Source of the DNA: an uncultured Lachnospiraceae bacterium
Lineage (GTDB): Bacteria; Bacillota; Clostridia; Lachnospirales; Lachnospiraceae
Reading direction: 5' to 3'
DNA length: 43,165 nt
Assembly (NCBI GenBank): GCA_948470755.1
Contig: CAOKPU010000019.1
Location: 1-43,165, forward strand
The notes beneath the pieces are model-generated. The model was given only the letters and a program-made list of their open reading frames with translations. It did not search any database and was not told the origin of the DNA. A program made the translations under genes and the position numbers. Below, piece after piece: positions 1,394 to 39,774 of the stretch (positions are counted from its first letter, which is position 1; the number at the start of each line of letters is the position of its first letter).

Positions 1394-1395
1394 AA

Positions 1396-5862: not shown

Positions 5863-5878
5863 GGCGCCTTTCCCTTTA

Positions 5879-8061: not shown

Positions 8062-8077
8062 AATTTTCTGCTCCCGC

Positions 8078-19761: not shown

Positions 19762-19807
19762 CCTTACCACTTCTCCCGTTATCTATGGCTCCAAATACTA
19801 TGATGCA

Positions 19808-22634: not shown

Positions 22635-23642
22635 TTAAAAGTACAACTTAATTTTCCATAAAAATGGAAGCAGATCCATTGCCCGCAGCATATTCCCCCA
22701 CAGCTCCAACTGTATCTTCATATAATTTCCCATGCATTCCCGGCGGAAATGCACCTTCTGCCTTTTCCCTTTTTCCGACATGCACAAACGGACTCCTTCC
22801 GCAAGCCCTTTCAGATAAATCCGGCCCAGCCCTTTTTTAGCAAAAAAAACTGTCTTTACCAGTATTCCCGCTACAATAAAACCTGAATTCAGCAAAATCT
22901 GGAAAAAAGGCATATTTTTATAGATAAGGTAGATATTGTTCCGGGCGGAAAGCCTTACCTTAAATTTATTATGACGGGAGCCGCTGACTGCGCTCCCTGC
23001 ATGATACACAATAGCGCCAGGCTCAAAATAATTGGAAAAACCGGAAATCTTTGCCCGGTATCCGATGTCGATATCCTCCAGATAAGCAAAATGATTTTCA
23101 TCAAAATACCCGATCACATCAAAAACGCTTTTCCGGTATATAGCAGCCCCTGCACAGGATGCGAAAACCTCAGCCGGCTTTGCATAAAGCGCCTCATCCT
23201 TCCCTTTTCCCAAAGCAAACGCCCATCCTAGGGCGCAGTATGAGTCCCCCGCATCGTCGATGAGCTTTGGATTTTGCATGGAAAGCATTTTCGCGCTGAC
23301 CGAAAAAGCATCTTTTCTTTTTTGAATCGCTTTCCATAAGCGATATACATATTCTTTATCCACCCTTGTGTCATTATTCAAAAGAATCACATATTCTGTG
23401 TCCGAAAGACGTATCCCTTCATTTACTGCGCGGCAGAATCCCTTGTTTTCCTTAAAACGCACCACCTTGCACATAGGGTACTTCTTTTCAGCCAGTTCTG
23501 CGCTCCCATCCGCAGATCCATTATCTATGAGGATCACTTTCGGTGCTGCGCTTCCTTCATAAAGGGATTCCAGGCATTTATCTATATATTTTATTCCGTT
23601 ATAATTAGGTATCACTACCGTTACATCCGCTATCTCTCTCAT
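22635..23642 (-). CDS. GT2 family glycosyltransferase, rhamnosyltransferase-like (single domain)
   Basis: A 335-residue enzyme with one GT-A domain: 'VTVVIPNYNGIKYIDKCLESL' (residues 8-28), 'VILIDNGSADGSAELAE', 'ENKGFCRAVNEGI', and DxD region 'YVILLNNDTRVD'. The acceptor part has 'HFAYLEDIDIGYRAKI'. Near the C-terminus it has a hydrophobic segment ('ILLNSGFIVAGILVKTVFF') that may dip into the membrane. The start codon lies 38 nt inside the upstream glycosyltransferase gene, with GAGGGAG ahead, indicating coupling. Probably adds a rhamnose or other deoxyhexose to the lipid-linked chain. Confidence 0.9.
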   Translation of the reverse strand: MREIADVTVVIPNYNGIKYIDKCLESLYEGSAAPKVILIDNGSADGSAELAEKKYPMCKVVRFKENKGFCRAVNEGIRLSDTEYVILLNNDTRVDKEYVYRLWKAIQKRKDAFSVSAKMLSMQNPKLIDDAGDSYCALGWAFALGKGKDEALYAKPAEVFASCAGAAIYRKSVFDVIGYFDENHFAYLEDIDIGYRAKISGFSNYFEPGAIVYHAGSAVSGSRHNKFKVRLSARNNIYLIYKNMPFFQILLNSGFIVAGILVKTVFFAKKGLGRIYLKGLAEGVRLCMSEKGKRQKVHFRRECMGNYMKIQLELWGNMLRAMDLLPFLWKIKLYF

Positions 23643-25071
23643 TGCTCCCTCTTTCCCATTCCGGCGTCCAGATTACCGTATATCCTGCCTTCCGCACCCG
23701 TCTTCCGAACTCAAGGCAAAGCCTCCTAAGCTCTTTTTCCGTTTCCTGCCGTGCTTTTCTGCTGCTTTTCCCCTGTTTACGGCATTTCCCTTCCCATCCG
23801 CAGGGACGGTTTTCTTTATACGGAAATTGTTCCCGCCCTTTTATCTTTCTTTCCCGATAAGGCGTCCCGAACACTTCTTCAAACAGCCCCCATAATTCTT
23901 CCCTCACCTGCATACATCTTAGATCTACGGCGTACGCCTCCTGGCTAAGACAGGCCCTGTGCATATATCCGCTAAAGTTCCGGTTCAGGCCAAAATATGG
24001 ACAATCCCCTCCGGCGTTATATATACCGCCTACAATACGGCCGGCCCTGTCCACCAGCTTTCCACCGATCACGCCCACTTCCTTCCTTTGGGCAAAAATA
24101 TGATGTTCGTATTGGATATGGTAAAACCCTAAATGAGGCGTGTGAGACACCTTCCCTCTCCACCCCCGGCTCTCCATAAAGTCTTCCAGCGCCCGTTTTC
24201 CCGCTTCATATGCATAACGCTTGCTTTCCGGGTTTTCTGCAGTGGAAGCTTCATGGCACCTCCAATGATAAAGGATTTTAGGGATATGGACTATCGATCC
24301 CCTGCCCCTTCCCCCGTCATATGCCAGCTTCCCTACCGCCCGCAATACCAAGTCGTAGTCCTGCGCCCCATTATACTTTGACCGGAATCCAAGGCTTTGC
24401 ATCAATTCCCTTTCCATCACAAGAAAATGGCAGATATAATTATTGGAAAAAAGCAAGTCCAAATTCAGCCCCGGCTTCCTATGAGGTTCATAGAATTCCA
24501 TCATATCCCCATCCGATTTATCTTCATCCGAATAAAGCATCCGGACATCTTTCCCTTTTTTCTTTCCCTCTAAAATCGCTTCCGCCATTTCAAAAAGCGC
24601 GTCAGGAACCAGCACGTCATCATGATCCAGCAGGCCTACATAGTCCCCTGCCGCCTCCGCTAAAGCTGCATTCGTATTTTCCGCTATTCCTTTATTTTCC
24701 CCTAAACGGATATATTTAATCCTCTTGTCCTTATAACCCTCCACGATTTCCTGCACTTTCGTTGTTTTGCCGGCGTCCGCAAGGATCAGTTCCCAGTTAT
24801 CGTAGCTCTGCCCCCGGACGGAATCCAGCATTTCCCGCAAATATCTTTCATCCGTTTCATAAGCCGGCACAAGGATGCTGAATTGATAGGGCTTTTCCCC
24901 TCCCTTCTGTCTCTCCAGGGCTTCCTTGCCCGGCGGCTCATAACGGTACTTCCTCCCTTTTCTGTCAAGTACCCTCTCCAGGACAGCATAATATGTGTTT
25001 TTCCAACCGTTTTTTTTCAAATAATAGTATGTCTTACGAACATTGCCCGCTTTGAAAATTCCAAATGCCAT
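23605..25071 (-). CDS. GT2 glycosyltransferase with one intact and one remnant GT-A domain
   Basis: The 488-residue protein opens with a helical segment (1-70), then a full GT-A domain: 'FSILVPAYETDERYLREMLD', 'YVGLLDHDDVLVPDALFEMA' (DHDD metal site) and 'LLFSNNYICHFLVMER'. After residue 330 the stretch 'KEVGVIGGKLVDRAGRIVGG' through 'DLRCMQVREELW' matches the acceptor half of the second domain in the neighbouring 664-residue paralog. The nucleotide-binding half of that domain is absent. The tail is rich in Lys/Arg. It overlaps the next gene by 38 nt. It follows the pgm terminator, so read-through or a promoter in the 25080-25140 stretch is needed. Confidence 0.87.
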   Translation of the reverse strand: MAFGIFKAGNVRKTYYYLKKNGWKNTYYAVLERVLDRKGRKYRYEPPGKEALERQKGGEKPYQFSILVPAYETDERYLREMLDSVRGQSYDNWELILADAGKTTKVQEIVEGYKDKRIKYIRLGENKGIAENTNAALAEAAGDYVGLLDHDDVLVPDALFEMAEAILEGKKKGKDVRMLYSDEDKSDGDMMEFYEPHRKPGLNLDLLFSNNYICHFLVMERELMQSLGFRSKYNGAQDYDLVLRAVGKLAYDGGRGRGSIVHIPKILYHWRCHEASTAENPESKRYAYEAGKRALEDFMESRGWRGKVSHTPHLGFYHIQYEHHIFAQRKEVGVIGGKLVDRAGRIVGGIYNAGGDCPYFGLNRNFSGYMHRACLSQEAYAVDLRCMQVREELWGLFEEVFGTPYRERKIKGREQFPYKENRPCGWEGKCRKQGKSSRKARQETEKELRRLCLEFGRRVRKAGYTVIWTPEWERGSNERDSGCNGSDT

Positions 25072-25197: not shown

Positions 25198-26919
25198 TTA
25201 AATATGAGACTTCAAGGCCTCTGTCAGTTTTTCCACTTTATCCTGCGCATCTTCCAAACCGGTCCCCTTTACTCCCATGTAAAATTTCAGCTTCGGTTCC
25301 GTACCGGACGGGCGGGCGCAGCACCATGAATCATTCGTTAAATCAAAGTAAATGACATTGGACTTAGGAAGCCCGGTTTCCCTCTCTTCCCCGCTCTCCA
25401 TATTCACGATCCTGTTCTTGTCATAGTCCCTGGCTTCCACCACCTTAAGGCCGCCAAATTCTTTAGGCAGGTCGTTCCTCAATTTATCCATGATCCCTGC
25501 AATCTGTTTGGATCCTTCGATCCCCTTTAACGTGATCGTATACTGAGTTTCTTTAAAGTAACCGTATTTCTCATACAGCTCCAGCATCTGATCCCATACG
25601 GTCTTGCCGTTTTTCTTGCACCATGCGGCCATCTCGCACAGGCACATAACAGCCACTACCGCGTCTTTATCCCTCGCATGGGTGCCTGCAAGGCATCCGT
25701 AGCTTTCCTCCAGGCCGAATACATAATGGTTGGAACCGCTTTGTTCAAACCATTTGATCTGTTCGCCGATATACTTAAACCCGGTCAGGACTTCGATGCA
25801 TTTTACTTGATAAGCGTCGCAGATCGCCTTCGCCATATTGGTAGTAACGATCGTCGTTACCAATGCAGGATTCTCCGGCATCGTCCCTGTCGCCGTCCGT
25901 TCCCTTAAAATATATTCCGCAATCAGCATTCCCGACATATTGCCGGTAAAGGGAACATATTCGCCGCTCTTTGTATCCAGCGCATAAATCCCCAGCCTGT
26001 CCGCATCCGGGTCAGTGGCAAGGACGATATCCGCATTTTTTTCCTTTGCCAGCTTAAGCGCAAGGGTAAAGGCTTTCGGGTCTTCCGGGTTCGGGTAATC
26101 CAATGTGGTAAAATCAGGATCCGGCAGTTCCTGTTCCGGCACCACATACACATGTTTGAATCCTAATTCGGACAAAATGCGCCTTACCGGTATGTTGCCG
26201 GTCCCATGGAACGGGGAATATACGATCTTAATGTCATCCGCCATTTCTTTGATGATTTCCGGATGGATGATCTGCTTTTTCAGCTCCGCCATATATGCAT
26301 CGTCTATTTCTTCCCCGATCACCTGGTACAGGCCTGCTTTGACCGCCTCTTCCTTATCCATCGTCTTTACGTCATGATAATCGGTTACGTTTTTTACTTC
26401 CGTAATAATTTCCTTATCCTTAGGAGCCGTTACCTGCGCCCCGTCCTCCCAATAAGCTTTATAGCCGTTATATTCCGGAGGGTTATGGCTTGCAGTAATG
26501 ACAATACCCGAAATACATCCAAGCTTCCTTAACGCAAAAGATAATTCCGGGGTCGGGCGCAGCGAATCAAAAACATACGCCTTAATACCGTTTGCCGCCA
26601 GGCAAAGGGCCGCTTCATCCGCAAATTCCGGCGATTTCCTCCGGGAATCGTAAGCAATGGCAACGCCTTTTTCCTTGCCGCCCTGCTTTAAGATATAATT
26701 GGCAAGCCCCTGTGTCGCTTTACGCACCGTATAAATATTCATGCGGTTTGTTCCGGCCCCGATTACGCCTCTTAAACCGCCGGTCCCGAATTCCAGTTCT
26801 TTATAGAAACGGTCTTCGATTTCTTTTTCATCATTTCTGATCGATAGAAGCTCGTTTTTGGTGTCTTCATCGAAATACGGATCGTTTAGCCAGAAATTAA
26901 ATTCTTCCTGATAGCTCAT
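25198..26919 (-). CDS. pgm: Phosphoglucomutase / phosphomannomutase
   Basis: A 573-residue alpha-D-phosphohexomutase that interconverts glucose-6-phosphate and glucose-1-phosphate. Family sites in order: 'GTGGLRGVIGAGTNRMN', the phosphoserine loop 'GIVITASHNPPEYNGYK', the metal loop 'ATDPDADRLG', the sugar loop 'GLEESYG' and the phosphate loop 'RPSGTEPKLKFY'. Length fits the Gram-positive PgcA-like group. AGGAGGAAG precedes the ATG, and the gene has its own promoter and terminator, so it can be expressed apart from the polysaccharide genes. In this place it likely supplies glucose-1-phosphate for RfbA and hence dTDP-rhamnose. Confidence 0.95.
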   Translation of the reverse strand: MSYQEEFNFWLNDPYFDEDTKNELLSIRNDEKEIEDRFYKELEFGTGGLRGVIGAGTNRMNIYTVRKATQGLANYILKQGGKEKGVAIAYDSRRKSPEFADEAALCLAANGIKAYVFDSLRPTPELSFALRKLGCISGIVITASHNPPEYNGYKAYWEDGAQVTAPKDKEIITEVKNVTDYHDVKTMDKEEAVKAGLYQVIGEEIDDAYMAELKKQIIHPEIIKEMADDIKIVYSPFHGTGNIPVRRILSELGFKHVYVVPEQELPDPDFTTLDYPNPEDPKAFTLALKLAKEKNADIVLATDPDADRLGIYALDTKSGEYVPFTGNMSGMLIAEYILRERTATGTMPENPALVTTIVTTNMAKAICDAYQVKCIEVLTGFKYIGEQIKWFEQSGSNHYVFGLEESYGCLAGTHARDKDAVVAVMCLCEMAAWCKKNGKTVWDQMLELYEKYGYFKETQYTITLKGIEGSKQIAGIMDKLRNDLPKEFGGLKVVEARDYDKNRIVNMESGEERETGLPKSNVIYFDLTNDSWCCARPSGTEPKLKFYMGVKGTGLEDAQDKVEKLTEALKSHI

Positions 26920-27021: not shown

Positions 27022-29016
27022 TCAGGCTTTATTTTTTTCATCCACCTTCAAAGAAAAATCGCTTCTGTCCAAAGAAAAATTAGGATTGTAATAGGGATCC
27101 CCTTTCTCTAAGACCTTCTTCCATTTTTCCCGGAACCGGGCCGATTCTTCCTCATACCGCTTCGCCTTTTCCCCCTGATCGTCCAGCCCTCTTGATATGG
27201 ACTCGTAATGATACAGCTCCGCAAAAGGGGTAAACACGTTTAAGTATCCCATCTCCCTAAGCCTGATGCAAAAATCCACGTCGTTTAACGAGACTGCAAA
27301 AGACTCGTCCAAGCCGCCGGCTTTTTCAAAAAGCCTTTTAGATACCATCAGACACGCCCCGGTTACAGCGGACACATTTTGGGCGTAGCAGAGCCTCCCC
27401 ATATATCCAAGATTTTCCCGATGCTGTTTATAATGGCTATGTCCGGCGGTACGGTGGGCGCCAAGCCCTAAAACAACGCCCGCATGTTGGATCGTTTTAT
27501 CCCCATAATAAAGCTTCGCCCCCACAGCGCCTACATCCTGACGCTGGGCGTACATTAACATCTCTTCCATCCAATTGACAGTAATCACTTGCGTATCATT
27601 GTTCAATAACAGGATATAGTCTCCTTCCGCCGCTTTTACCCCAAAGTTGTTTACGGCGGAATAATTGAATCCCCCTTCATAAACAACCACTTTTACTTTT
27701 TCATTTTCTTTCAGTTCCTCATAATACTTCCATATTTCCGGCGACTGACTGTTATTCTCCACCACAATCACTTCAAAATTATCATAAGTGGATTTTTCAA
27801 AAATGGAAGCCAGGCATCGGCGCAGATCCGCTTCATGGTCTTTATTGGCAATCACAATGGAGATTTTCGGATTACCGATAATCTGATAACTGATCTTAAA
27901 GATCGTCTCAAACGCCCGCGTACCTGTAATCTTAAAATGTTCGCAGCCATGTTTGCGCAGATGCTCCGACACCGCCCCTTTGGCCGCATCCACGGCATAC
28001 GTCTTTGCCTGTATGCCGCTGGCCGTACTTCCCGCATGGGAACGCCAATAATACATCAGCTTTGGCACATGGACTACTTTCTTTGCCTTGTCGGTAAGGC
28101 GGAGTATCATGTCATGATCCTGGCTGCCGTCATATTTGCTCCGGAACAGCTCATTCCCATCCAGAAGCCTCCGGTCAAAGACGCTGAAATGGCAGATATA
28201 ATTATTCGCCCGCAGATTATCAATGGCATAGTCCGGCTTAAAATGCATGGTCAGCATCTTGTTGATATTGTTGTTTTTAAAGGTCGCCTCATCACAGTAT
28301 ATATAATCCGCGTCCTGTTCATTGATCGCTTTTACATATTCATACAGCACGGAAGGATGCAGGATATCATCATGGTCGAACAGCCCGATATATTCACCCG
28401 TTGCCATAGCCAGGCACTGGTTTGTATTGCCCGATATCCCTTCATTTTTCTCCAGCTTTTTATATACGATCCGTCCCGCGCCTCCCCTCCTGCCTTTATC
28501 CGCCTTCTGGTATTCCATGCACACCTCCCCTACATAGGCATGGTCGTCCCCGGAACCGTCCGCTAAGCAAAGTTCCCAGTTTTCATAAGTCTGCCCCACT
28601 ACCGAATCCAGCATATCAGCCAAAAATTCCCGGGGCGTATTATAAAGAGGGACAAGTATGCTGAATTTCACCATATGAGGAAAAACCGCCTCCGTCTCTC
28701 TGCGCCGCCTTTCCTCGTCCGGGAAGCTGGCCGTGCCATAGCGTTCCATAGCGTCCCGTTCCCTCTGTTTATACCTTAGCTTCGCCCATACCCCCCTCAC
28801 ATTGCCGCAGTTTTTCAACCGGTCTTTCTGGCGTATACAGTAATGCATCGCTTTCCGAAGGGGCGCGCTTATTTTCCAAGCCGGGTTATTTTTAATCCGG
28901 TTGATCTTAAAATTCAACTCTTCATTCTTCTCCTCCAGCTCCGCTATCCGCCCTGCCAGATCCGCGCACTTCATATGCTCCTTTTCGTAAGCCTCTTTAT
29001 AATCCATTGTTTCCAT
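27022..29016 (-). CDS. Two-domain GT2 glycosyltransferase with N-terminal coiled coil
   Basis: A 664-residue protein. Residues 1-45 are a Glu/Lys-rich coiled coil. GT-A domain one (about 115-340) has 'VKFSILVPLYNTPREFLADM', the DHDD site 'IGLFDHDDILHPSVLYEY' and 'NNYICHFSVFDRRLL'. GT-A domain two (about 385-640) has 'KISIVIANKDHEADLRRCLA', 'VVENNSQSPEIWKYYEEL' and DxD-like 'ILLLNNDTQVITVNW'. Its acceptor part has 'SAVTGACLMVSKRLFEKAGG' and 'VSLNDVDFCIRLREMGY'. Both active sites look intact, so it could make two linkages of the repeat unit. It overlaps the upstream 692-residue paralog by 20 nt. Confidence 0.9.
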   Translation of the reverse strand: METMDYKEAYEKEHMKCADLAGRIAELEEKNEELNFKINRIKNNPAWKISAPLRKAMHYCIRQKDRLKNCGNVRGVWAKLRYKQRERDAMERYGTASFPDEERRRRETEAVFPHMVKFSILVPLYNTPREFLADMLDSVVGQTYENWELCLADGSGDDHAYVGEVCMEYQKADKGRRGGAGRIVYKKLEKNEGISGNTNQCLAMATGEYIGLFDHDDILHPSVLYEYVKAINEQDADYIYCDEATFKNNNINKMLTMHFKPDYAIDNLRANNYICHFSVFDRRLLDGNELFRSKYDGSQDHDMILRLTDKAKKVVHVPKLMYYWRSHAGSTASGIQAKTYAVDAAKGAVSEHLRKHGCEHFKITGTRAFETIFKISYQIIGNPKISIVIANKDHEADLRRCLASIFEKSTYDNFEVIVVENNSQSPEIWKYYEELKENEKVKVVVYEGGFNYSAVNNFGVKAAEGDYILLLNNDTQVITVNWMEEMLMYAQRQDVGAVGAKLYYGDKTIQHAGVVLGLGAHRTAGHSHYKQHRENLGYMGRLCYAQNVSAVTGACLMVSKRLFEKAGGLDESFAVSLNDVDFCIRLREMGYLNVFTPFAELYHYESISRGLDDQGEKAKRYEEESARFREKWKKVLEKGDPYYNPNFSLDRSDFSLKVDEKNKA

Positions 29017-31075
29017 CGTCCATCCTCGTATTCAAATATCTGTTCGTCCAGCAATACAGCTTCTGCCCGGAACAAACCTCCTTCACAAATATCCCAATCC
29101 GGTAACTGCCCTCCGCCAGCGCACTGCCGTCTATTACCGCGCCGAACCCGGTTAATCCCACATGCTCCTGATCGGGCAGATTTTCTTCCACATCCTTACG
29201 TCTGAAAAGTTCCGGCCGTACAGCCATTAATTTCCCGCCGTTTTCCTCCGCGTCTTTTTCCGGTTTTAAAAGTATCCGCTTCTCAAACAAAGCATTGTCC
29301 GATCCCGATACAAAAGAATATCCCTGCAGGAAATATTCCGCGTTTTTTCCTTCCGCACCGTTAAGAAAGGCCGCCGGGCCGGCATATTCCAAGCTTATCA
29401 TCACGCAGGCGTCTTCCCTCGCCCCCGACAGCAGATTCCCCGCCTCCAGCGCCCGGGTACGCACCGCGCCGTATTCCAGCCCATATTCCGCCTGCAGGTC
29501 AAAGCCGGCGCTTAATATATCATTTGCCAGATATTTATGATAAAAGGGATCTTTCCCATACAGCCCGGGATGCCTCTCATACAGCTTATCCCTCTCCCGT
29601 AAAAGCCGTTCCAGCTTATCCCTTTCCCCGTCATCGCCCCGGCTTAGGGATTCATGATGATACAGCGCAAAATCCTGCAGCACTACATTATAATACCCCT
29701 TTTCAAAGAGGGAAAAGCAAAGATCCACATCGTTAAAGGCCACAGGAAGCTCCTCCGGGAACCCGCCGGCTTCAAAAAACCTATCCTTCTCCACCGCAAG
29801 ACATGCGCCAGTTACCGCAATCACGTTGCGTCTTCTCCTGTTCCAGCCATAATAATAGCTAAGCTTGTCTTCTTTAAACTGCAGCTTGTGTACCGGCCCT
29901 GGTTTTGAATTCACGATCCCCGCATGTTGTATCCTGTGCGAACCCGGATAGTACAGCTTTACCCCTACGGCTCCCGCATATGGAAGACGCGCCATATATA
30001 CAAGGGTTTTAAGAAAATTATCCCTCCCGCTGTCGGCAAGATCCGGCAGTTCCACATCATCATTTAAAAACAACAGCACTTCCCCCGCTGCCGCCTTCGC
30101 GCCCATATTGCACATCCTGGAAAAATGAAATGGCATCTTCTCATAAAAATACGTAAAAGAAATCCCCAGCCCTCCTAACCAATGTTCCAGTTCCCTCTTC
30201 ACATCCTCTTTGCTTCCATTATCAACAAGGATAATCTCATAATCCCTTCCATACCCTCTTTCCGCTTCCGCCGCCACGGAAAGGATGCAGCGTTTCAACA
30301 CATCCGCATTATCCTTGGAAGGGATAATGACCGACAACTTCCCTTCCCCGCCTTTTTCCGGCCTGCCAATATCGCCAGGGACCGATTCTTGTTCCAACAT
30401 GGATTCCCTGTTCCATTTCCCATGGAACAACACTTCATCCAGGTGCCCGATGGGAAAATTCCATTCTCCCCCTGCACTTTCTTTCCGCCGTTTGAATCCC
30501 CCGCATTTTCTTGCCAACAAGAAACACAGTCTATAGGCCGCCTCCCCGTCTTCTCCTTCGTCCGCCTCCTTCAGCCACATCCTTTCTTTCTCCGTCAATT
30601 CCCTAAGCATGTTTGTCCTAACCGCAAATAAACTTCCAAAATAAAAAAAGGATAAGAACGTATCCGGCGACCAGTCCGGCTTAAACCAGGGAGTATAACG
30701 GATGCCCTCAGGGCTTAATACATCTTCATCCCCATAAAGCATCCGTATCTCCCCATGGGAGGAAAAATATTCCGCCACTTCCTCCACGGCCCCGTCTCTT
30801 ATGCGGCCGGAAGAATCCGTAAACAGAATGATATCCGCCGTTTCCTGCCTCAGGGAATTCCCCAGGCAGTAATCCATACAGGCCTCATAGGGTACTTCCT
30901 TTACCGTCAGGCTGCCGCCCCCATCCCGTCCGCCTGCCCTTTCTTTCTCCTTCTCTCTTATCCAGGAATCATATGTCACCGTCTTTTTTTCCAGCAGCCT
31001 TTCATATTTCTTACGCTGCCTGTCCGCCAACAGTTTTTTGATCCCTTGCTTTACTCTATAAAACATTCTTATCAC
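28997..31075 (-). CDS. GT2 glycosyltransferase with degenerate first domain and C-terminal beta domain
   Basis: A 692-residue paralog. The first domain has lost its nucleotide-binding opening motif but keeps 'ILFTDSSGRIRDGAVEEVAE', 'MLYGDEDVLSPEG' and 'PWFKPDWSPDTFLSFFYFGS'. The second (about 245-505) is intact, with 'KLSVIIPSKDNADVLKRCI', 'ILVDNGSKEDVKRELEHWL', 'VLLFLNDDVELPDL' and 'AVTGACLAVEKDRFFEAGG'. The last 150 residues form a beta-rich region ending in 'SYRIGIFVKEVCSGQKLYCW' like that in other polysaccharide assembly proteins. It starts 3 nt after the MTase-kinase gene. The second domain is expected to be the active one. Confidence 0.87.
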   Translation of the reverse strand: MIRMFYRVKQGIKKLLADRQRKKYERLLEKKTVTYDSWIREKEKERAGGRDGGGSLTVKEVPYEACMDYCLGNSLRQETADIILFTDSSGRIRDGAVEEVAEYFSSHGEIRMLYGDEDVLSPEGIRYTPWFKPDWSPDTFLSFFYFGSLFAVRTNMLRELTEKERMWLKEADEGEDGEAAYRLCFLLARKCGGFKRRKESAGGEWNFPIGHLDEVLFHGKWNRESMLEQESVPGDIGRPEKGGEGKLSVIIPSKDNADVLKRCILSVAAEAERGYGRDYEIILVDNGSKEDVKRELEHWLGGLGISFTYFYEKMPFHFSRMCNMGAKAAAGEVLLFLNDDVELPDLADSGRDNFLKTLVYMARLPYAGAVGVKLYYPGSHRIQHAGIVNSKPGPVHKLQFKEDKLSYYYGWNRRRRNVIAVTGACLAVEKDRFFEAGGFPEELPVAFNDVDLCFSLFEKGYYNVVLQDFALYHHESLSRGDDGERDKLERLLRERDKLYERHPGLYGKDPFYHKYLANDILSAGFDLQAEYGLEYGAVRTRALEAGNLLSGAREDACVMISLEYAGPAAFLNGAEGKNAEYFLQGYSFVSGSDNALFEKRILLKPEKDAEENGGKLMAVRPELFRRKDVEENLPDQEHVGLTGFGAVIDGSALAEGSYRIGIFVKEVCSGQKLYCWTNRYLNTRMDDGNNGL

Positions 31076-31078: not shown

Positions 31079-33163
31079 CTAAAACCATTTTTTTGCCGCA
31101 TCCGCCATATCCCGGGCAATGGAAGAAGGCAGCCTTACGATTTCCATTTCCGCCTCCAGTTCATTCCTTTCCCTTTTTTCCATATCCTCCAGCCGGATAT
31201 TTATGTTTGGATCCTCCGTGGCGAACACATAGCTTCCTTCTCCCAGCCGCCTGCCATTCGTCACAATCCGCTTTCTTCCGTTCCCTATAGCGGTTCCATT
31301 GAATAAAAGCTTTTTTATTTTCACCGCACAATAATCCATGGCCGGATCTATGCGCAATATTTTCACATCCTTGTCCACGGGCAGCGTCAAACGGATCTCC
31401 CGGCCCGCCCCATAAGCGTCCTTTACAAAATAAGAATCTTCCTCGCTGAATCCTTTTCCTCTATCCACATAAACCTGAACCTTATCTTCCTTCGAGGATC
31501 CATCGAATTTATGCAGCCATTTCCCCGGTTCCATCACCTGGTTCCCGATCGCTTCCCTGATCTCTCCCATTGATTTGCGGCTGCCGGTCACGAATTTCTG
31601 GAATTCCATCTCCCTGGCCCTGCAGGCTTCCTGCTCTTCCACAGTCAGGCCGAGTTCCTGCGCCATAGCGGATAGATCCAGCTTTTCCCTTTTCTTATTT
31701 TCCAGTACATAACAGTAAAGCGCCCGGTACGCCGTTTCGTTCGCACTGATAGGCTTTCCAAACGTCCATTCATAATCAATAACCGTCCAAGGCACGGCCT
31801 TCACCGCTTCCGGATCACCCCATGCCCTCTCTTCCTGCAGTGGAACCAATAAATTAGCAAAGATTAAATCATAATCCGCCACCGGAAGATCTTCCCTGTA
31901 AGATATCCTATCCTTATATTCATGAAACAAAACAGAAAAACCATCCAAATCATCCCTGTCCAGAAAACCGTCCAGGATTTCTTCCAGCGTAACGCCTTCT
32001 ACATATTCAAATTCCGCGCCGGCCCCGTCTTCCAGGATCCGGCACTTATTCATTTCCAACATGCTGCCTTCAAACCGTTCCGCCAGATCCAGATAGGCTG
32101 CGCCCATCCCCCGGATATGCTCTGCCGCTGGTTTTGACAAGGCCCTTTTTCTTATTACCATACCCTGACCCTCTATCCGCAGCTCGGTGCGGATGGCGTA
32201 TTCCTCCGCCCGGTCATTGGAATATTTGACATAGGCTATATCCGGTTCGGGGCCGATGATCACTGCATAAGAATTGGAAAAAACAGGGAAAAGCCCGTCT
32301 TTAGCGATTCCGTCGAACGCCTGTTTTTCATCAAAAAACAGCATTCTTTCCCTGTCAAAATTCCTTAGATTATCATATAATTCCCCGGGCTTTGGCAGAC
32401 GCCTGTCGGAATACAGCGCCGTCATAAACTTATAATCCGGATATGGGTAATAAAAAGAATATTCCGCAAGGCCGCTTTCCTGCAGCATCTGTTCCAGACG
32501 TCCCCTTACAAAAGTCCGTACGCCGCCTCCCCCGGCATAATCTTCGATGCCGGAAAAATAAGACCCCAAATGATCCTCCATACATCCGGCAAAATATTTC
32601 AACCCAAGCCTGTTTTCTATCGCAATGACAATCCTGCCGTTCTTCTTCAGATGGCCCCGCATCATCTTCAGCCAGTCCACGTAGGGGTTTTGTGTATCAA
32701 TATAGCTTTGCCCGTATTCAAAAACCCCGATAAAACATATATAATCAAAGTCCGCAGGCAAATCCGGTTCGATATCCTTAAAATTGCCCACATGTATCGT
32801 TACATTCCCGCAATCCTGATGACGGTATGCATTGATCAGGCTCCGTTTTTTCGATAAATCAATACTGGTCACGCTCCCCGCCTTCTGCGCCAGCTTTCCG
32901 GTAATCGCGCCGCAGCCGGAACCGATTTCCAGCACTTTATCCGATTTTCCCACCGGAAGCCAGTCCACGATATTCTCGCGAAGCGGCGACAGATGATACA
33001 GGATCGGCCATTTTGCACGTTCTTCTATTATCTTCCGGAATTCTTCCGGGGAATGATTTTTTACGATCTCCAGCAATTCGTCTTCCACATCCCCGTCGCA
33101 GTAAAAATCTTCCCCCGGATAATGCTTATAATCCAGCGTAACTTTCCCTATCTTATCCTTCAT
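31079..33163 (-). CDS. Methyltransferase-kinase-like fusion, candidate glycan chain terminator (WbdD/WsaE-like)
   Basis: A 694-residue protein with three parts. Residues about 50-240 are a class I SAM methyltransferase with motif I 'KVLEIGSGCGAITGKLAQ' (76-93) and 'VTSIDLSKK' (98-106). Residues about 300-480 resemble a protein-kinase or phosphotransferase fold: a Lys/Arg segment 'MVIRKRAL', a catalytic loop 'YDLIFANLL' with D432 and N437 at the D-x4-N spacing of HxDxxxxN, and 'VIDYEW' (D463) where DFG lies. Residues about 560-694 are beta-rich. Its stop overlaps nothing downstream, and its start overlaps wzt by 4 nt. In WbdD such a pair caps the O9a chain and stops growth; the kinase reading here is by motif only. 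Confidence 0.75.
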   Translation of the reverse strand: MKDKIGKVTLDYKHYPGEDFYCDGDVEDELLEIVKNHSPEEFRKIIEERAKWPILYHLSPLRENIVDWLPVGKSDKVLEIGSGCGAITGKLAQKAGSVTSIDLSKKRSLINAYRHQDCGNVTIHVGNFKDIEPDLPADFDYICFIGVFEYGQSYIDTQNPYVDWLKMMRGHLKKNGRIVIAIENRLGLKYFAGCMEDHLGSYFSGIEDYAGGGGVRTFVRGRLEQMLQESGLAEYSFYYPYPDYKFMTALYSDRRLPKPGELYDNLRNFDRERMLFFDEKQAFDGIAKDGLFPVFSNSYAVIIGPEPDIAYVKYSNDRAEEYAIRTELRIEGQGMVIRKRALSKPAAEHIRGMGAAYLDLAERFEGSMLEMNKCRILEDGAGAEFEYVEGVTLEEILDGFLDRDDLDGFSVLFHEYKDRISYREDLPVADYDLIFANLLVPLQEERAWGDPEAVKAVPWTVIDYEWTFGKPISANETAYRALYCYVLENKKREKLDLSAMAQELGLTVEEQEACRAREMEFQKFVTGSRKSMGEIREAIGNQVMEPGKWLHKFDGSSKEDKVQVYVDRGKGFSEEDSYFVKDAYGAGREIRLTLPVDKDVKILRIDPAMDYCAVKIKKLLFNGTAIGNGRKRIVTNGRRLGEGSYVFATEDPNINIRLEDMEKRERNELEAEMEIVRLPSSIARDMADAAKKWF

Positions 33164-34452
33164 TCCGGCTTCTCCTCATCTTCGTCATATACCCTGGCCA
33201 CCGTTCCCATATCATAGAAACCAACCGTATCCTTATCGGAGATGACAGTCAGGTTCAATACATCATACAATCTATGATACACTTCAAACTTATCCCTTTC
33301 ATATCCTGTCACCCCCAGGGAAAGAAGATACTCCCCGCCCTGCAGGCTCATTTTCTGGGTAAATGCAACTTCCTTTTTCTCCCCTGCCCCCACCGGCTCC
33401 AAAAATGCCTTCTCCACCATCGTATTGGTTCCTGTAATCTCCGTCCCCTTAATGTTTTTAATGGTAAAAGCGAAAATAGGGGCCGGCACATCTTCCGCAA
33501 AATCTACCTTCATATGGATAGTAAACTCCTGCCCCTTAATGACAGCAGTGGTATGTATCCCTTTATCGTCCGTAATATAATATTCCGTAATCTTCGCTGC
33601 ATTTGTGCCATATTCCAACAGTTTTGGGTTTATGCCCGCCTTCGCCGCAGCCGCATCCGTCACTTCCCTGTCATTCAGCAGGCCGCCGCCCTCGTCTTCC
33701 GTTACCTCATACTGTCCTACCAGCACGCGTTTATAGACGTCGATCATTTCCTTCGGCGCGCCTTCCCCCAGCTTCACTCCTTGGTTTAAAAGCACCACCC
33801 TGTCGCAGTATTTACTGATACTGCTCAAATCATGACTGACGAACAAAATTGTCTTCCCCATCCGTTTGAATTCTTCAAACTTATGGTAACATTTCGCCTG
33901 GAAAAATACATCGCCCACGGATAAAGCTTCGTCCACTATCAATATTTCCGGTTCGATATTAATCGCAACCGCAAAAGCAAGGCGGACGAACATCCCGCTG
34001 GAATACGTTTTTACCGGCTGATACACATAGTCGCCGATATCCGCAAACTCTAAGATGGCATCCATCTTTTCATCAATTTCCTTTTCGGAAAAACCAATCA
34101 TCGTTCCATTCAAATATATATTTTCAATCCCGTTATATTCCTGGTTAAACCCCGCCCCCAGTTCCAAAAGGGCGGATATACGGCCATTTACTTTCACTTC
34201 CCCTGCAGAAGGGTTCAACACCCCTGTAATAATCTTTAAAATTGTGGATTTCCCCGACCCGTTCGTACCGATGATCCCCACCGTTTCCCCTTGGTAGACC
34301 TTCAAATTGACCTGATTTAAGGCATGATGCTCCTTATACTTTTTTTTCCTGGATAAACCCAGCGCTTCCATCATCCTGTCCGAAGGTTTATCATACAGTC
34401 TATATACTTTATCCAGATCTTTCACCTGGATCGCTACTTTTTTCTTATTCAT
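33160..34452 (-). CDS. wzt: Polysaccharide ABC exporter ATPase with C-terminal cap domain
   Basis: A 430-residue ATPase. The N-terminal half (1-245) has Walker A 'GTNGSGKSTILK', the exporter-type signature 'YSSGMFVRLAFA' and Walker B 'EILIVDEALSVGD'. The C-terminal half, about 260-430, is a beta-rich Wzt_C-like domain ('YYITDDKGIHTTAVIKGQEF', 'FAFTIKNIKGTEITGTNT'). In O8/O9a systems the cap reads the modified chain end before export. Plain capsule or teichoic-acid exporters of this family may lack it. It overlaps the MTase-kinase gene by 4 nt (ATGA), and wzm is 65 nt upstream, giving a complete export module. Confidence 0.93.
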   Translation of the reverse strand: MNKKKVAIQVKDLDKVYRLYDKPSDRMMEALGLSRKKKYKEHHALNQVNLKVYQGETVGIIGTNGSGKSTILKIITGVLNPSAGEVKVNGRISALLELGAGFNQEYNGIENIYLNGTMIGFSEKEIDEKMDAILEFADIGDYVYQPVKTYSSGMFVRLAFAVAINIEPEILIVDEALSVGDVFFQAKCYHKFEEFKRMGKTILFVSHDLSSISKYCDRVVLLNQGVKLGEGAPKEMIDVYKRVLVGQYEVTEDEGGGLLNDREVTDAAAAKAGINPKLLEYGTNAAKITEYYITDDKGIHTTAVIKGQEFTIHMKVDFAEDVPAPIFAFTIKNIKGTEITGTNTMVEKAFLEPVGAGEKKEVAFTQKMSLQGGEYLLSLGVTGYERDKFEVYHRLYDVLNLTVISDKDTVGFYDMGTVARVYDEDEEKPE

Positions 34453-34517
34453 CCTGCCATTTCTCCATTCCCAATCTGCCGCCGCCTCATCCTGCGGCCC
34501 AAACCACAGCGTCCCGC

Positions 34518-35570
34518 TTACAGGACATCGGCAAAATGCACTTTCAGCCGCTTAAAAATCAAGGATCCTATACAAAACAGCGTCACCGTAAAAATCCAAA
34601 AGTATGTGGAAGAATAAAAATGTTCAAAAAACCATTCCTGCTCATAAATCGCACTGCGGTACCCATTTACGATATAGACCATCGGATTCAGCTTAAAGAT
34701 CGGCTTCATGCGGTCGCTTAAAACCGAGATATCCCAAAGGATCGGCGTCGCCCACATCCCAATCTGGAGGACAATGCTGATGATCTGCTGCAAATCCTTA
34801 AAAAACACCACGATTGCACAAGTTAAATAGCTAATTGCCAGCACAAGCACAAATTCACAAAAACTGTAATAGAAAATCTGCAGCGTATAGATACTCGGAT
34901 AATATCCATAGGCAATAGCGATCACAAATAACACCAATACAAAAAAGACATGGACGAAAGTAGCCGCAATCACTTTTATAATGGGCAGGATGCTGATTTT
35001 AAATACTACCTTTTTTACCAGATAATTGTATTCCAGCAAAGCGGTCGTCCCATTGGTCAGGGCTTCCGTAAAATAGAACCAAGGTACCAGCCCCGCGGTA
35101 AGATACAGTACATAAGGGACTTCGATCCCTCCGGCCACAAGCTGGCTTCTCGTATCGAATACCCGGTCAAATACGATCCAATACATGACCACCGTTACCA
35201 CCGGCTGGACAAACGCCCATACCATGCCAAGATAAGAACCCGCATACCGTTTCTTAAAGTCATTCTTTGCCAGTTTCCATATCAACCGCCTGCTCTGGTA
35301 GAGTTCCTTTGGAAGGACCGTCAGCCGGTCATAAAAAATCCCGAAAATAGCGCAGGTAAATGAAATCAGCAAGCAGGCCATCACTTTCTTCATGACTTCC
35401 GTCGTCTGATCCGCCAATGGGTTATGATGAAGAAGCACTACCGCCGCCAGGACCGCGGCAAGAAAATAGAAAAGTCCTATAAATGCCTTTTTCGTTATAT
35501 CCCCATCCTGTTTCCTTCTTTTCTTATTTCCCTTTTTCACAAACTTTTTCGTCTTCTTTTCCGCTTCCAT
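34518..35570 (-). CDS. wzm: Polysaccharide ABC exporter permease with N-terminal extension
   Basis: The 350-residue membrane protein has the ABC-2 permease core (about 100-350): 'LIWKLAKNDFKKRYAGSYLG', 'MVWAFVQPVVTVVMYW', 'VPYVLYLTAGLVPWFYF', 'GMWATPILWDIS' and 'FKLNPMVYIVNGYR'. Typical Wzm/TagG proteins are about 260-275 residues. Here about 85 residues precede the core, a Lys-rich tail and two extra helices ('AFIGLFYFLAAVLAAVVLL', 'KVMACLLISFTCAIFGIFY'). It is 9 nt downstream of rfbC and is followed by wzt. It exports the lipid-linked polysaccharide across the membrane. Confidence 0.93.
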   Translation of the reverse strand: MEAEKKTKKFVKKGNKKRRKQDGDITKKAFIGLFYFLAAVLAAVVLLHHNPLADQTTEVMKKVMACLLISFTCAIFGIFYDRLTVLPKELYQSRRLIWKLAKNDFKKRYAGSYLGMVWAFVQPVVTVVMYWIVFDRVFDTRSQLVAGGIEVPYVLYLTAGLVPWFYFTEALTNGTTALLEYNYLVKKVVFKISILPIIKVIAATFVHVFFVLVLFVIAIAYGYYPSIYTLQIFYYSFCEFVLVLAISYLTCAIVVFFKDLQQIISIVLQIGMWATPILWDISVLSDRMKPIFKLNPMVYIVNGYRSAIYEQEWFFEHFYSSTYFWIFTVTLFCIGSLIFKRLKVHFADVL

Positions 35571-35579: not shown

Positions 35580-36137
35580 TTACTCGCCTGCAACATAATC
35601 TTTTATGCCGCCCCACTTTTTATCTTTCTCGGACATGACCAGTTCCATCCCTTCCGGGATCGGCCACTCCACCCCGATCGCCGGGTCATTATAAAGGATT
35701 CCCCCTTCGTCATTAGGATGATAAAAATCCGTACATTTATAAGTAAATTCCGCATAATCCGAAAGGACCAGAAAACCATGGGCAAAATTCTTCGGGATAA
35801 AAAACTGTTTTTTGTTTTCCGCAGAAAGCGTCACCCCGAACCACTTGCCGAATGTACTGCTCCCCTCCCTTAAATCCACCGCTACATCGAACACTTCCCC
35901 GCTGATTACCCTGACCAGCTTGTCCTGAGGGAACTCTTTTTGAAAATGAAGGCCCCGGAGGACGCCTTTTTTGGAAGAGGATTGATTATCCTGCACAAAC
36001 ACCTGGCCAATCCCGGCTTCCTTATAAGCCTCATAATGATATGTCTCCATAAAATATCCCCTCTCATCCCCAAATACGGCGGGCGTGATTACCTTAAGCC
36101 CTTCTATCCCGCAAGTTTCAACCGTTATTTTACCCAC
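35580..36137 (-). CDS. rfbC: dTDP-4-dehydrorhamnose 3,5-epimerase
   Basis: A 185-residue cupin-fold epimerase, the third enzyme of dTDP-L-rhamnose synthesis. Conserved marks are 'DERGYFMETYHYEAYKEAGI', 'FVQDNQSSSKKGVLRGLHFQ' (with the catalytic His), 'VRVISGEVFDVAVDLREGS', 'FGKWFGVTLSAENKKQ' and 'FIPKNFAHGFLVLSD'. Length is as usual. It sits between the GH25 gene and wzm on the same strand, a little apart from rfbA and rfbB. Confidence 0.95.
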   Translation of the reverse strand: MGKITVETCGIEGLKVITPAVFGDERGYFMETYHYEAYKEAGIGQVFVQDNQSSSKKGVLRGLHFQKEFPQDKLVRVISGEVFDVAVDLREGSSTFGKWFGVTLSAENKKQFFIPKNFAHGFLVLSDYAEFTYKCTDFYHPNDEGGILYNDPAIGVEWPIPEGMELVMSEKDKKWGGIKDYVAGE

Positions 36138-36224: not shown

Positions 36225-37595
36225 CTACCACTCCGCGTTCACGGCCCCTTCTATCGGCTTTGGCTCCTCCACCTCTTCCGGAGCGATATCTTCCTCCCCG
36301 GCCATGGTTCCTTCTTCCTCCTGCTCCTCATTTTGGGCGTTATTTTCTATTTTCAGATAACTTAAATTGAAGTCCACTTTCCCTTCAATCCCATCCACGC
36401 TTCCGCTGGAAGTGTATTGCCACATATGGTAGTATCCCTGATAAATAGGCACATCCCTATATTCCGCCAGCCATACCACATAATCCCTTAATTTATCCAT
36501 ATCAAGCATCTGGTTGAGCCAATTCCTGGAAGAATATACGCCGGCGCGATATCCTGCGCTTTCTATCGTTGCGCAGAAAGCTTTGCTGACCGCCGTCCTT
36601 GCCTCCACATCCAGCCCGTCCGCCCGTCCGCTGCCTCCAAGCCCTTCTACGTCAATAAACACCGGATATGTAACCTCATAGTCTTTGCACAAGGCAATTA
36701 CCATGCTGGCCTCTTCCACCGCTTCTACCGGGTCTAAGGCCTGCGTAAAGAAATATACCCCTGTCGGGATCCCTGCACGGGCCGCCCCCTTTATATTAGC
36801 CTCAAAATAAGGATCTTCCACCAAAGCGCCTGTTGTCGCCCCCCGGTAGCCTACCCGGATAATGGCAAACTCCACTCCGGCCTTTTTCACCTTATCCCAA
36901 TCGATCTCCTTATTCCATTTGGAAACGTCAATCCCCATTTTTGCACCAGGATTCCCCTCCTGCATCTTGGTGATCTCCGACGGATCGGCATCCTCCAAAG
37001 CTTCATTGGCTTCCAGATCCTCCAACTCCGCATTGACCTCATCTTCGGATAAGATCAGCAGATCTATATCGTCAATGACCACATATTCCACGCTTTGCTT
37101 TACCGTTATCTTCGCTTCCGTATCCGGCACGCGGTAGCCTTCCACTTCCTTCAGCGCCACAGCGTACTCCCCCGCACGGAGATATTCGATATAGATTACG
37201 CCGTCCTGATCCTCATCCGTATATTCTTTATCCCCGTTCAACACGACCGAGAAATTCTCCCCTTCCACAAGCTTCCCTGCATTATCCACGATCTGAATAC
37301 GCAGATCCTTCTGTACCGAAGTCATCAACAGCGACAGATTCTTCCCTTCCATCTTCTCAATGGATGAGTAGGGCTGCTTGTCCGGTTCAAAAAAAGTCTC
37401 GTCCTCCAGAAATGCACGGGTATTATCCCCTATCTGCATCGTGCCAGCCTCTTCCGGCCTGCTTTCCTGCTCCGGTTCCTGTTTCTTCGCGCTCTCATCG
37501 CCGGAACGGATATTGGCGTACAGGACAATCCCCCCTACTGCCACAAACATCAGGATAATCATTAAAATAATAATCCGCTTTACATTAGAGCCCAT
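36225..37595 (-). CDS. Membrane-anchored GH25 (lysozyme-like) protein
   Basis: A 456-residue protein. The start at ATG 37595 follows AGAGG and overlaps rfbA by 11 nt; a TTG at 37601 is less likely. Residues about 5-30 form a membrane anchor ('[19 protein letters not shown]'). Residues 80-170 look like a beta-sandwich ('[20 protein letters not shown]', '[15 protein letters not shown]'), then the GH25 barrel from about 220: '[18 protein letters not shown]', '[10 protein letters not shown]', 'GVYFFTQA', 'PVFIDVEG' with the catalytic Asp/Glu, and '[20 protein letters not shown]'. GH25 enzymes cut the MurNAc-GlcNAc bond of peptidoglycan. Lying inside a rhamnose operon, it may open the wall for glycan attachment or passage. 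Confidence 0.9.
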
Positions 37596-38454
37596 TTGCA
37601 ACCTCTATCATATATTTTCCATAATCCGTCTTCATCAGCGGTTCTGCCAGTTTTAAAAGCTGTTCCTTTGTAATGAATCCCCTTTTATAAGCGATCTCCT
37701 CAATGCAGGAAATATAAAGCCCCTGCCTTTTCTGGACAGCCGCCACGAAGTCCGCCGCGTCCAGAAGGGAATCATGGTTCCCTGTATCCAGCCATGCAAA
37801 CCCTCTCCCTAACGTTTCCACCATCAGGCTGCCCCGATTCAAATACTCGTTATTAATACTTGTAATCTCCATTTCCCCTCTGGCGGAAGGCTTCACGTTC
37901 TTTGCAATTTCCACCACATCGTTATCATAAAAATACAAGCCCGGCACCGCATAATTGCTTTTGGGCTTTTCCGGCTTCTCCTCAATGGAAAGGGCCTTTC
38001 CCGTCTCATCGAATTCCACCACCCCATACTCTCTGGGATCCCTGACGTAATATCCGAAAATCGTCGCCCCTTTCTCCCTGGATACCGCTTCTTTCAGCAC
38101 CCTGGAAAAACTCTGCCCGTAAAAGATATTGTCCCCAAGCACCAGGGCCACGCTGTCTCTCCCGATAAAATCCGCCCCTATGATAAAAGCATCCGCCAGG
38201 CCCCTTGGATATTCCTGCACCGCATACTCTATCCTAAGCCCAAGCTGCTCCCCCGTTCCAAAAAGATCCTCAAACACAGGCAGATCCCTCTTTGTGGAAA
38301 TGATCAATATTTCCCGGATCCCTGCCAGCATCAATGTAGATAAAGGATAATAAATCATGGGTTTGTCATAGACCGGCATAATCTGCTTTGAAATCGCCTT
38401 CGTCAATGGATAAAGCCGCGTCCCGCTGCCCCCTGCTAATATAATTCCCTTCAT
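37585..38454 (-). CDS. rfbA: Glucose-1-phosphate thymidylyltransferase
   Basis: A 289-residue nucleotidyltransferase that makes dTDP-glucose from glucose-1-phosphate and dTTP, the first step toward dTDP-rhamnose. It has the family opening '[18 protein letters not shown]', then '[16 protein letters not shown]', '[13 protein letters not shown]', '[17 protein letters not shown]' and '[19 protein letters not shown]'. Length is typical. It lies downstream of rfbB across a 177-nt gap that contains the half-copy palindromic repeat, and overlaps the GH25 gene by 11 nt. Confidence 0.96.
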
Positions 38455-38631: not shown

Positions 38632-39708
38632 CTATTGGTACATTTCCTCATAATATTTCTGATAATCGCCGCTTGTTACATTCTTCATCCAGTCTTCGTG
38701 TTCAAAAAACCACTGGATCGTCAGCTTAATGCCTTCCTTAAACATGGTTTCCGGTTCCCAGCCGATCTCCTCCTTAATCTTGTCCGGCGCAATTGCATAC
38801 CGCCTGTCATGGCCCTTGCGATCTTCCACATAGGTGATCAGATCCTTGCTGACCAGTTTTTTCCTCGGGTCTGTTTCCGGCAGCATTTCCTGCAAAGTAT
38901 CAAGAATAATATGGATAATCTCTATGTTCTGCTTCTCGTTATGCCCGCCGATATTATAAGTTTCAAACAAACGCCCCTTTTCCTGTACCATATCAATGGC
39001 CTTTGCATGGTCTTCCACATACAGCCAGTCCCTTACGTTCTTCCCATCCCCATATACCGGAAGCTTTTTCCCTTGCAGCGCGTTATTGATAATCAACGGG
39101 ATCAGCTTTTCCGGGAACTGGTACGGACCGTAATTATTGGAACAGTTCGTAATATTAGCCGGGAACTTATAAGTGTCCATATACGCTTTTACCAGCATGT
39201 CCGAACTCGCCTTGCTGGCTGAATACGGGCTGCGAGGCGCATACGGCGTCGTTTCATAAAAATATCCCCCATCCTCTTCCAGGGAACCATAGACTTCATC
39301 TGTGGAAACATGCAGGAATTTCTTTCCCTCCTTAAAAGTCCCGTCCGGAAGCTCCCATGCGTCTTTTGCGCAGTTTAGCATAACGGCGGTGCCTAAAACG
39401 TTTGTCTTTACAAATACTTCCGGGCTGCGGATGCTTCTGTCCACATGGCTTTCCGCCGCAAAATGCACCACCCTGTCAATATCATTTTCCGCAAAAACCT
39501 TTGCAATCGCTTCCTTATCGCAGATATCCGCTTTCACAAACGTATAATTTTCCTGATTTTCCACGCTTTTCAGATTCTCCAGGTTTCCCGCATACGTCAG
39601 GGCATCTACATTGATGATGCGGATTTCATCCCCATACTTTTTCAACATATAATGAATATAATTAGAACCGATAAAACCAGCCCCTCCTGTTACCAAATAA
39701 GTCCTCAT
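38632..39708 (-). CDS. rfbB: dTDP-glucose 4,6-dehydratase
   Basis: The 358-residue short-chain dehydrogenase-type enzyme converts dTDP-glucose to the 4-keto-6-deoxy sugar. 'YLVTGGAGFIGSNYIHYML' binds NAD, 'HFAAESHVDRS' and 'STDEVYGSLEEDGG' hold catalytic residues, and 'YSASKASSDMLVKAY' gives the YxxxK pair. The ATG at 39708 is chosen: GGAGGAAG is eight bases ahead, and the longer frame to 39750 runs into the -10 box of the promoter just upstream. It is the first gene of the rhamnose and polysaccharide cluster. No rfbD follows in the window. Confidence 0.96.
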   Translation of the reverse strand: MRTYLVTGGAGFIGSNYIHYMLKKYGDEIRIINVDALTYAGNLENLKSVENQENYTFVKADICDKEAIAKVFAENDIDRVVHFAAESHVDRSIRSPEVFVKTNVLGTAVMLNCAKDAWELPDGTFKEGKKFLHVSTDEVYGSLEEDGGYFYETTPYAPRSPYSASKASSDMLVKAYMDTYKFPANITNCSNNYGPYQFPEKLIPLIINNALQGKKLPVYGDGKNVRDWLYVEDHAKAIDMVQEKGRLFETYNIGGHNEKQNIEIIHIILDTLQEMLPETDPRKKLVSKDLITYVEDRKGHDRRYAIAPDKIKEEIGWEPETMFKEGIKLTIQWFFEHEDWMKNVTSGDYQKYYEEMYQ

Positions 39709-39745
39709 TCTTTCTTCCTCCATACCGAAGCGTTTTCTTTCTCCC

Positions 39746-39774
39746 ATCATAACTTCTTATCCCTCTGCCGTCAA
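39746..39774 (-). promoter_or_regulatory. Promoter of rfbB and the polysaccharide cluster
   Basis: On the minus strand TTGACG (39769-39774), 17-nt spacer, TATGAT (39746-39751). Transcription would start near 39739, leaving a leader of about 30 nt before the ATG at 39708. Confidence 0.75.

Follow-up and report, generated by a model that had tools for sequence, protein, structure and literature searches.

A predicted methyltransferase-kinase chain terminator coupled to a cap-reading Wzm/Wzt exporter in a rhamnan-type wall glycan locus of the Lachnospiraceae

The 43,165-nucleotide contig CAOKPU010000019.1 (assembly GCA_948470755.1) from an uncultured Lachnospiraceae bacterium, analysed here over its whole length as the window and numbered along its forward strand, carries on its minus strand a glycan cluster in which the genes of an ATP-binding cassette (ABC) exporter, wzm and wzt, are followed by the gene of a methyltransferase-kinase of 694 amino acids, which we refer to as MTK both in the window and in its relatives. 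We propose, with a probability of roughly three in four, that these genes form a module for stopping and exporting the chains of a rhamnan-type wall glycan, in which MTK adds a methylphosphate cap to the growing chain and only capped chains are exported. Three lines of evidence give good support to the prediction that a methyltransferase-kinase ends the chain and works with a Wzt that reads the cap: the catalytic residues of MTK, its co-occurrence with one group of Wzt proteins, and the residue that these proteins carry at the cap site. The three genes at the centre of the module are as follows:

34518..35570, minus strand: wzm, ABC permease of 350 amino acids (ABC2_membrane, E 4e-15)
33160..34452, minus strand: wzt, 430 amino acids, ABC ATPase with a C-terminal cap-binding domain (Wzt_C, residues 280-415) and R394 at the cap-site position
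31079..33163, minus strand: MTK, 694 amino acids, with a methyltransferase (residues ~1-300), a predicted APH-like kinase (~300-545) and a C-terminal domain resembling a carbohydrate-binding module (CBM; ~560-694), from profile and alignment evidence

As a first-pass annotation of this DNA had noted, wzm, a wzt with a C-terminal cap domain and the methyltransferase-kinase gene are adjacent and coupled: 65 bp separate wzm from wzt, the end of wzt and the start of the MTK gene overlap by ATGA, and the domain matches agree with these names. The Wzt tail, for which a comparison with the cap family had been suggested, matched Wzt_C (PF14524) with an E value of 3e-41 and 141 bits against a cut-off of 30. 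Methyltransferase families matched MTK within residues 72-233. The genome of the window holds one MTK match, and the closest named relatives of the window are mostly titled Lachnospiraceae or Acetatifactor.

The kinase-like motifs that had been read from the DNA earlier, D432 and N437 at D-x4-N spacing and D463 in 'VIDYEW', do lie at these residues, and all three are invariant in alignments of 22 (A1) and 51 (A2) MTK sequences as well as in a kinase-only alignment of 44 (A3), whose members share 21-69% identity with the window protein and include separately encoded kinases. Nine columns are invariant in A3 (R318, T326, K339, D432, N437, D463, E465, W466 and R480), among which K339 would presumably fit the ATP-site lysine of kinases. 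A pattern fitted to the motif was found in one of the 120 stop-to-stop frames of at least 150 amino acids present in the window and the E. coli HS stretch, namely in MTK itself. When a profile of 46 kinase regions was compared with 26 APH-family proteins, the unguided best local alignment ran over the D-x4-N and the following ID motif, with D432, N437 and D463 in register, and scored 39.9 (36.7 from match columns only, the form used for shuffling); 199 column shuffles reached at most 19.5, the reversed profile 20.9, and the methyltransferase and C-terminal domains of MTK 15.6 and 14.0, respectively. Searches of the PDB with the A2 profile returned GCN2 (E 0.001) and JAK2 (E 0.008) behind methyltransferases, and those with the A3 profile gave weak kinase matches, the best being JAK1 (E 0.03) over profile positions 30-122 only; with the single MTK protein as query, all 23 matches were methyltransferases or their kin. 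The profile evidence points to a kinase fold over residues ~300-545. An ArsR hint at residues 461-541 (E 0.046, or 0.008 with the kinase region alone) was rejected, as it fell under the cut-off and overlapped the kinase motif. In the record of Kineothrix alysoides, the MTK match (L083, 1934-4167) is in two pieces.

To place MTK in its genomic context, we used a sample of 200 Lachnospiraceae genomes, one per genus. An MTK match at E <=1e-10 was present in 101 of them, each from a different genus of the family, and in 13 of 398 genomes drawn over the phylum; a Pseudomonas and a Citrobacter protein were the sole MTK matches among 72,556 plasmid records. Upstream of MTK, wzt ended within 200 bp in 64 of the 72 loci that had at least 2.6 kb of upstream sequence (out of 80 named relatives' loci surveyed), and lay further upstream on the same strand, by up to 3.7 kb, in the other eight. 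Downstream, a glycosyltransferase like the 692- or the 664-residue protein of the window was found within 1.5 kb in 63 of 67 loci with enough sequence. Across the 200 genera, Wzt_C matches fell into a high group (at least 133 bits, 100 matches) and a lower group (at most 121 bits, 41 matches), and MTK was found within 6 kb downstream of 93 of the 100 high-group matches versus none of the 41 lower-group ones. Counted by genome, the kinase profile and a high-group Wzt_C occurred together in 99, the kinase alone in 6, neither in 94 and Wzt_C alone in 1, the last being G170, where the MTK match stops at the contig end (Fisher p 3e-48, uncorrected for phylogeny). Lower-group Wzt_C, in contrast, was not associated with the kinase, which was present in 17 of the 35 genomes with such a Wzt_C versus 88 of the 165 without. 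No relation was seen between the C-terminal domain of MTK and Wzt_C.

The Wzt proteins that accompany MTK share a residue at the site where the cap would be read. In the Wzm/Wzt of Aquifex aeolicus, the Wzt of which is related in its ATPase and in its cap domain, a neutral 3-O-methyl cap is read by Trp362, which stacks on its methyl group (PMC9445017), whereas the window Wzt has Arg at this place. Arg occupies the position in 78 of 78 MTK-linked Wzt proteins (R394 of the window and those of 77 of the 80 named loci, the other three having no usable match) and in 30 of 30 further Wzt from stretches L114-L143 and L191-L201; one of these 30 (L143) comes from another family of the phylum, with the kinase, by eye, as the next gene. 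It is likewise found in the Wzt of E. coli O9 and O99, where the next genes are methyltransferase-kinases, and in those of the Pseudomonas and Citrobacter plasmids. Trp is present in the Wzt of E. coli O8, whose 425-residue methyltransferase has no kinase motif, and of E. coli O60, in which neither of the two following genes has a kinase motif, and all 18 of the lower-group, MTK-unlinked Wzt_C tested (out of 41, G023 not being among them) have Tyr, Phe or Trp. E. coli O9a is described as bearing a methylphosphate cap and O8 a methyl cap with no kinase (PMC3482155, PMC9445017). A Wzt that reads a charged (methyl)phosphate cap would be expected to carry Arg there instead of Trp. The window Wzt is 36% identical to that of E. 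coli O9 over 423 positions. The genome of the window has a second Wzt_C exporter (G000:C2:48147-48542, L202), which belongs to the aromatic group and is not linked to MTK.

These residues bear on whether the terminal rhamnose might instead receive a methyl group only, as with Geobacillus WsaE and E. coli O8, the kinase domain of MTK being inactive or regulatory. For WsaE, 2-O-methylation is the described means of capping an S-layer rhamnan of a Gram-positive bacterium (PMC2943079), and the methyltransferase of the window matches known families while its kinase does not. A methyl-only cap nevertheless appears quite unlikely, in that the window Wzt carries Arg where both methyl-cap readers used for comparison carry Trp, the kinase residues are invariant in A3, and the kinase is kept in two relatives that have no recognisable SAM (S-adenosylmethionine) motif. 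As far as the Geobacillus system is described, it resembles the window in its Gram-positive rhamnan, in the wzm/wzt genes beside a methyltransferase protein and in a polyprenyl-phosphate sugar transferase as starter; it is set apart by a WsaE made of a methyltransferase and two glycosyltransferases, by its 2-O-methyl cap and by its protein acceptor, where the window has a kinase, separate glycosyltransferases and an LCP gene.

The closest described type is ORF6-N of Klebsiella pneumoniae O7. ORF6 combines a methyltransferase, an unannotated APH-like kinase (closest fold AmiN, D441), an immunoglobulin-like CBM, a coil and two rhamnosyltransferase modules, and the O7 terminator was shown to put methylphosphate on O3 of the terminal rhamnose, a D441A mutant leaving unexported polymer (PMC11231755). 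The main text of that paper contains none of the words Gram-positive, Firmicutes, Clostridi-, Lachnospir-, WsaE or Geobacillus. The comparison with the window runs through the Pseudomonas plasmid protein (1457 amino acids), which has the same residues at all six published O7 SAM-site numbers, can be aligned to the window family across residues 15-681 of the window protein (26% identity, probability 100), and is 38% identical in its C-terminal dual GT2 part to the 664-residue protein of the window over 546 aligned positions. Through this relative, Y28, Y66, G91, G93, E112 and Y158 of the O7 SAM site correspond to Y21, Y56, G81, G83, D102 (Asp for Glu) and Y150 of the window. Around the Citrobacter plasmid protein, the neighbourhood is the same and includes rml genes. 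The window MTK thus shares with ORF6-N, again via the Pseudomonas relative, the order of methyltransferase, APH-like kinase and CBM-like domain, domains that also occur apart in relatives, and the two systems have in common a wzm/wzt partner, a dual GT2 rhamnosyltransferase part and a catalytic Asp in an APH-type D-x4-N. Unlike O7, where coil and GT2 modules lie within one protein, the window has its GT2 enzymes in separate genes, no coil found in MTK, a Gram-positive host and an LCP gene instead of lipopolysaccharide.

With E. coli O9/O9a, the window shares the order wzm-wzt-terminator-polymerase (as in the O9 locus of E. coli HS), a methyltransferase joined to a kinase and a Wzt with the same Arg; it differs in that the polymerase there is a mannan polymerase and WbdD has a long coil versus none in MTK. 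The match of the A2 profile to WbdD covered no more than part of the methyltransferase (probability 53%), and the MTK kinase profile scored 19.8 against it with the catalytic loop not found, both being insensitive comparisons with a single WbdD sequence. WbdD was rejected as the family of MTK because the match was confined to the methyltransferase part, with none over the kinase catalytic loop. The WbdD kinase itself matches the APH set (score 46.9), and the WbdD and MTK kinases may be distant members of a common superfamily. The 'WbdD-like' label given by the first-pass annotation therefore holds for the job of MTK as a chain terminator, which the catalytic residues, the co-occurrence and the Wzt cap-site residue favour, but not for its family, the match to WbdD being weak and O7 ORF6-N closer: MTK resembles WbdD in its predicted function and O7 ORF6-N in its architecture.

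Phosphate groups are common on wall polysaccharides, and a terminator lacking a coil ruler could be imagined to decorate internal residues or side chains with methylphosphate without ending the chain. We hold this to be improbable, as the kinase pairs tightly with one Wzt_C subfamily and not with the rest, and the O7 relative is described as capping a terminal rhamnose.

Further support for the proposed module came from relatives in which MTK is split or fused. Among 18 relatives' stretches, most of them chosen for looking split or fused, the methyltransferase (~300 amino acids) and the kinase are two adjacent open frames in 13, mostly right after wzt, and in four (L117, L119, L124 and L125) the kinase is joined to a segment resembling the 664-residue protein. 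Two lineages have the kinase in one protein with an RgpF domain for rhamnan synthesis (L121, E 1e-52; L192, E 1e-46). Such fission and fusion, RgpF included, supports a two-enzyme MTK and a rhamnan acceptor. Three genomes with no methyltransferase match at the first threshold still have the kinase beside wzt. In two of them, G153 and G178, no SAM motif can be recognised; the methyltransferase-like regions of L192 (8460-9020) and L193 (5219-8905) likewise show none beside an intact kinase motif, and may go with a phosphate-only cap.

It is very unlikely that the cap is a phosphate bearing another group or none, with a methyltransferase that acts elsewhere or is optional: G153 and G178 have no recognisable SAM motif yet keep the kinase motif intact and have a Wzt with Arg, which suggests that phosphate-only caps may occur in these two lineages, but the window methyltransferase keeps the O7 SAM-site residue positions.

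Along the minus strand, the cluster of the window is ordered rmlB-like, rmlA-like, GH25, rmlC, wzm, wzt, MTK, 692-residue GT2, 664-residue dual GT2, phosphohexomutase, two GT2, WcaJ-type starter, LCP and a further GT2. The genes around the central three are:

38632..39750, minus strand: NAD-dependent epimerase/dehydratase, putative rmlB (gene name inferred from the Pfam family)
37585..38454, minus strand: nucleotidyltransferase, putative rmlA (gene name inferred from Pfam NTP_transferase)
36225..37601, minus strand: GH25 muramidase-like protein between rmlA and rmlC
35580..36137, minus strand: rmlC, dTDP-4-dehydrorhamnose 3,5-epimerase
28997..31075, minus strand: GT2 glycosyltransferase, 692 amino acids, directly after MTK, candidate polymerase component
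27022..29016, minus strand: dual GT2 protein, 664 amino acids, candidate rhamnan polymerase, with a short coil-like stretch at 16-44
25198..26919, minus strand: phosphohexomutase family protein
22635..25071, minus strand: two GT2 glycosyltransferases (335 and 488 amino acids), candidate adaptor or side-chain enzymes
21178..22587, minus strand: WcaJ-type undecaprenyl-phosphate glucose phosphotransferase, the starter (TIGR03023, 502 bits against a cut-off of 411)
19856..20983, minus strand: LCP family glycopolymer transferase, predicted ligase to peptidoglycan
18763..19770, minus strand: GT2 glycosyltransferase after LCP

The starter, earlier taken to be WbaP-like, is thus of the WcaJ type. What the analysis shows directly is the order of the genes, their domains, the catalytic residues, the co-occurrence and the differing residue in Wzt. 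In the scheme that we propose, and in which we infer the acceptor sugar, the cap chemistry, the order of steps and the wall attachment, WcaJ would put glucose-1-phosphate on undecaprenyl phosphate, and the GT2 enzymes of 664 and 692 residues would grow a rhamnose-containing chain from dTDP-rhamnose. The kinase domain of MTK would phosphorylate the sugar at the non-reducing end, most probably a rhamnose, and the methyltransferase domain would methylate this phosphate, whereupon elongation would be blocked. The C-terminal domain of Wzt would bind the charged cap via a pocket with Arg394, the place of Trp in methyl-cap readers, so that Wzm/Wzt would export capped chains only. Finally, the LCP enzyme would attach the chain to peptidoglycan by its reducing end, so that the cap stays free.

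LCP enzymes are known for transfer to peptidoglycan, and attachment of the window glycan to peptidoglycan would be expected on this ground. An LCP gene was found within 10 kb in 7 of the 51 relatives' loci with full flanks, a low count that we attribute to the flank limit: the LCP gene of the window itself is slightly more than 10 kb away from MTK, and WcaJ genes followed by LCP genes were present downstream on the operon strand in 12 of 12 further genera read (out of the 101 with a match). In one of these 12, L180, the best glycosyltransferase matches lie beside MTK on the other strand. R. gnavus is a member of the Lachnospiraceae. A surface glucorhamnan with a rhamnose backbone has been described from this bacterium (PMC10112845).

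Several observations weigh against the proposed stop-and-export module. No Pfam kinase family matches the window MTK, for which Pfam and NCBIfam name a methyltransferase only; Pkinase matches one of the 44 A3 members (L095, E 4e-6), under the curated cut-off, and the sequence matches to kinases in the PDB are weak (E 0.001 to 0.03). The Citrobacter relative, which lies outside A3, has Glu at the position of D463 while keeping D-x4-N; the distant relative L141 (904-2550) apparently has Asn, by eye, at both catalytic Asp positions and is a possible pseudokinase; and the fitted kinase pattern was not found in the distant relative G186 (L200). The link to O7 runs via the Pseudomonas relative, in which the catalytic Asp of the alignment has the number 443 and not 441. 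No SAM motif was recognisable by eye in G153 and G178, where the kinase motif is intact and Wzt keeps its Arg, no search having been made for a methyltransferase elsewhere in those genomes. With regard to the exporter, the 130-bit line between the two Wzt_C groups was drawn after the scores had been seen, and one lower-group Wzt, that of G023 (121 bits; L201, 4388-7391), lies next to an MTK gene that precedes it, the reverse of the usual order, and carries the cap-site Arg. The Arg/Trp difference could also partly follow Wzt phylogeny.

The last such point concerns the coil, which a 2024 paper calls a hallmark of such terminators (PMC11127046). By a crude heptad score, which finds the coils of WbdD and of the Pseudomonas and Citrobacter proteins and also flags stretches in Wzt and the 664-residue protein, there is no coil in the window MTK, and in particular no coil-like segment after its kinase, and a coil follows residue 540 in 3 of the 51 A2 members. 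Because none was detected by this score, the long ruler appears to be absent from MTK or to have moved out of it; the coil-like start (16-44) of the 664-residue protein could be a vestige of such a ruler.

Other features of the window were recorded alongside the cluster. The GH25 protein (36225-37601) is apparently membrane-anchored and has a weak SpaA-like domain, which places a muramidase inside a wall-glycan locus; a GH25 match (E <=1e-8, position not checked) was present in 51 of the 51 relatives' loci with full flanks. An HtrA-like protease (Trypsin_2 and PDZ, 16815-18605) adjoins the end of the glycan cluster. Positions 45-9370 hold cobalamin genes (CobS, CobU, DBI_PRT and CbiA/GATase_3 families) together with a FecCD-type ABC transporter and a CbiK-like chelatase.

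Stop-and-ship capping has so far been worked out mainly in outer-membrane bacteria, and no Gram-positive or Lachnospiraceae terminator of the MTK kind was among the matches listed in a literature search of limited scope. The new aspects are the Gram-positive, LCP-linked setting, an MTK devoid of a long coil, the fission and fusion of its gene, and two kinase lineages with no recognisable SAM motif. We regard it as an even bet that about half of the Lachnospiraceae genera build a peptidoglycan-linked rhamnan with a methylphosphate cap (or, where the methyltransferase has decayed, a bare phosphate) at the non-reducing end and with no long coiled-coil ruler in the terminator, and that the Trp-to-Arg change in Wzt separates methyl- from phosphate-reading exporters across Gram-positive and Gram-negative bacteria. 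MTK also poses the question of what determines chain length when the terminator has no long coiled-coil ruler, and the one-residue Wzt signature may predict cap chemistry from sequence. If our reading is true, the cap-and-export logic of O-antigens would enter Gram-positive wall assembly in a large gut family, and the rhamnans of gut commensals would have a testable chain end.

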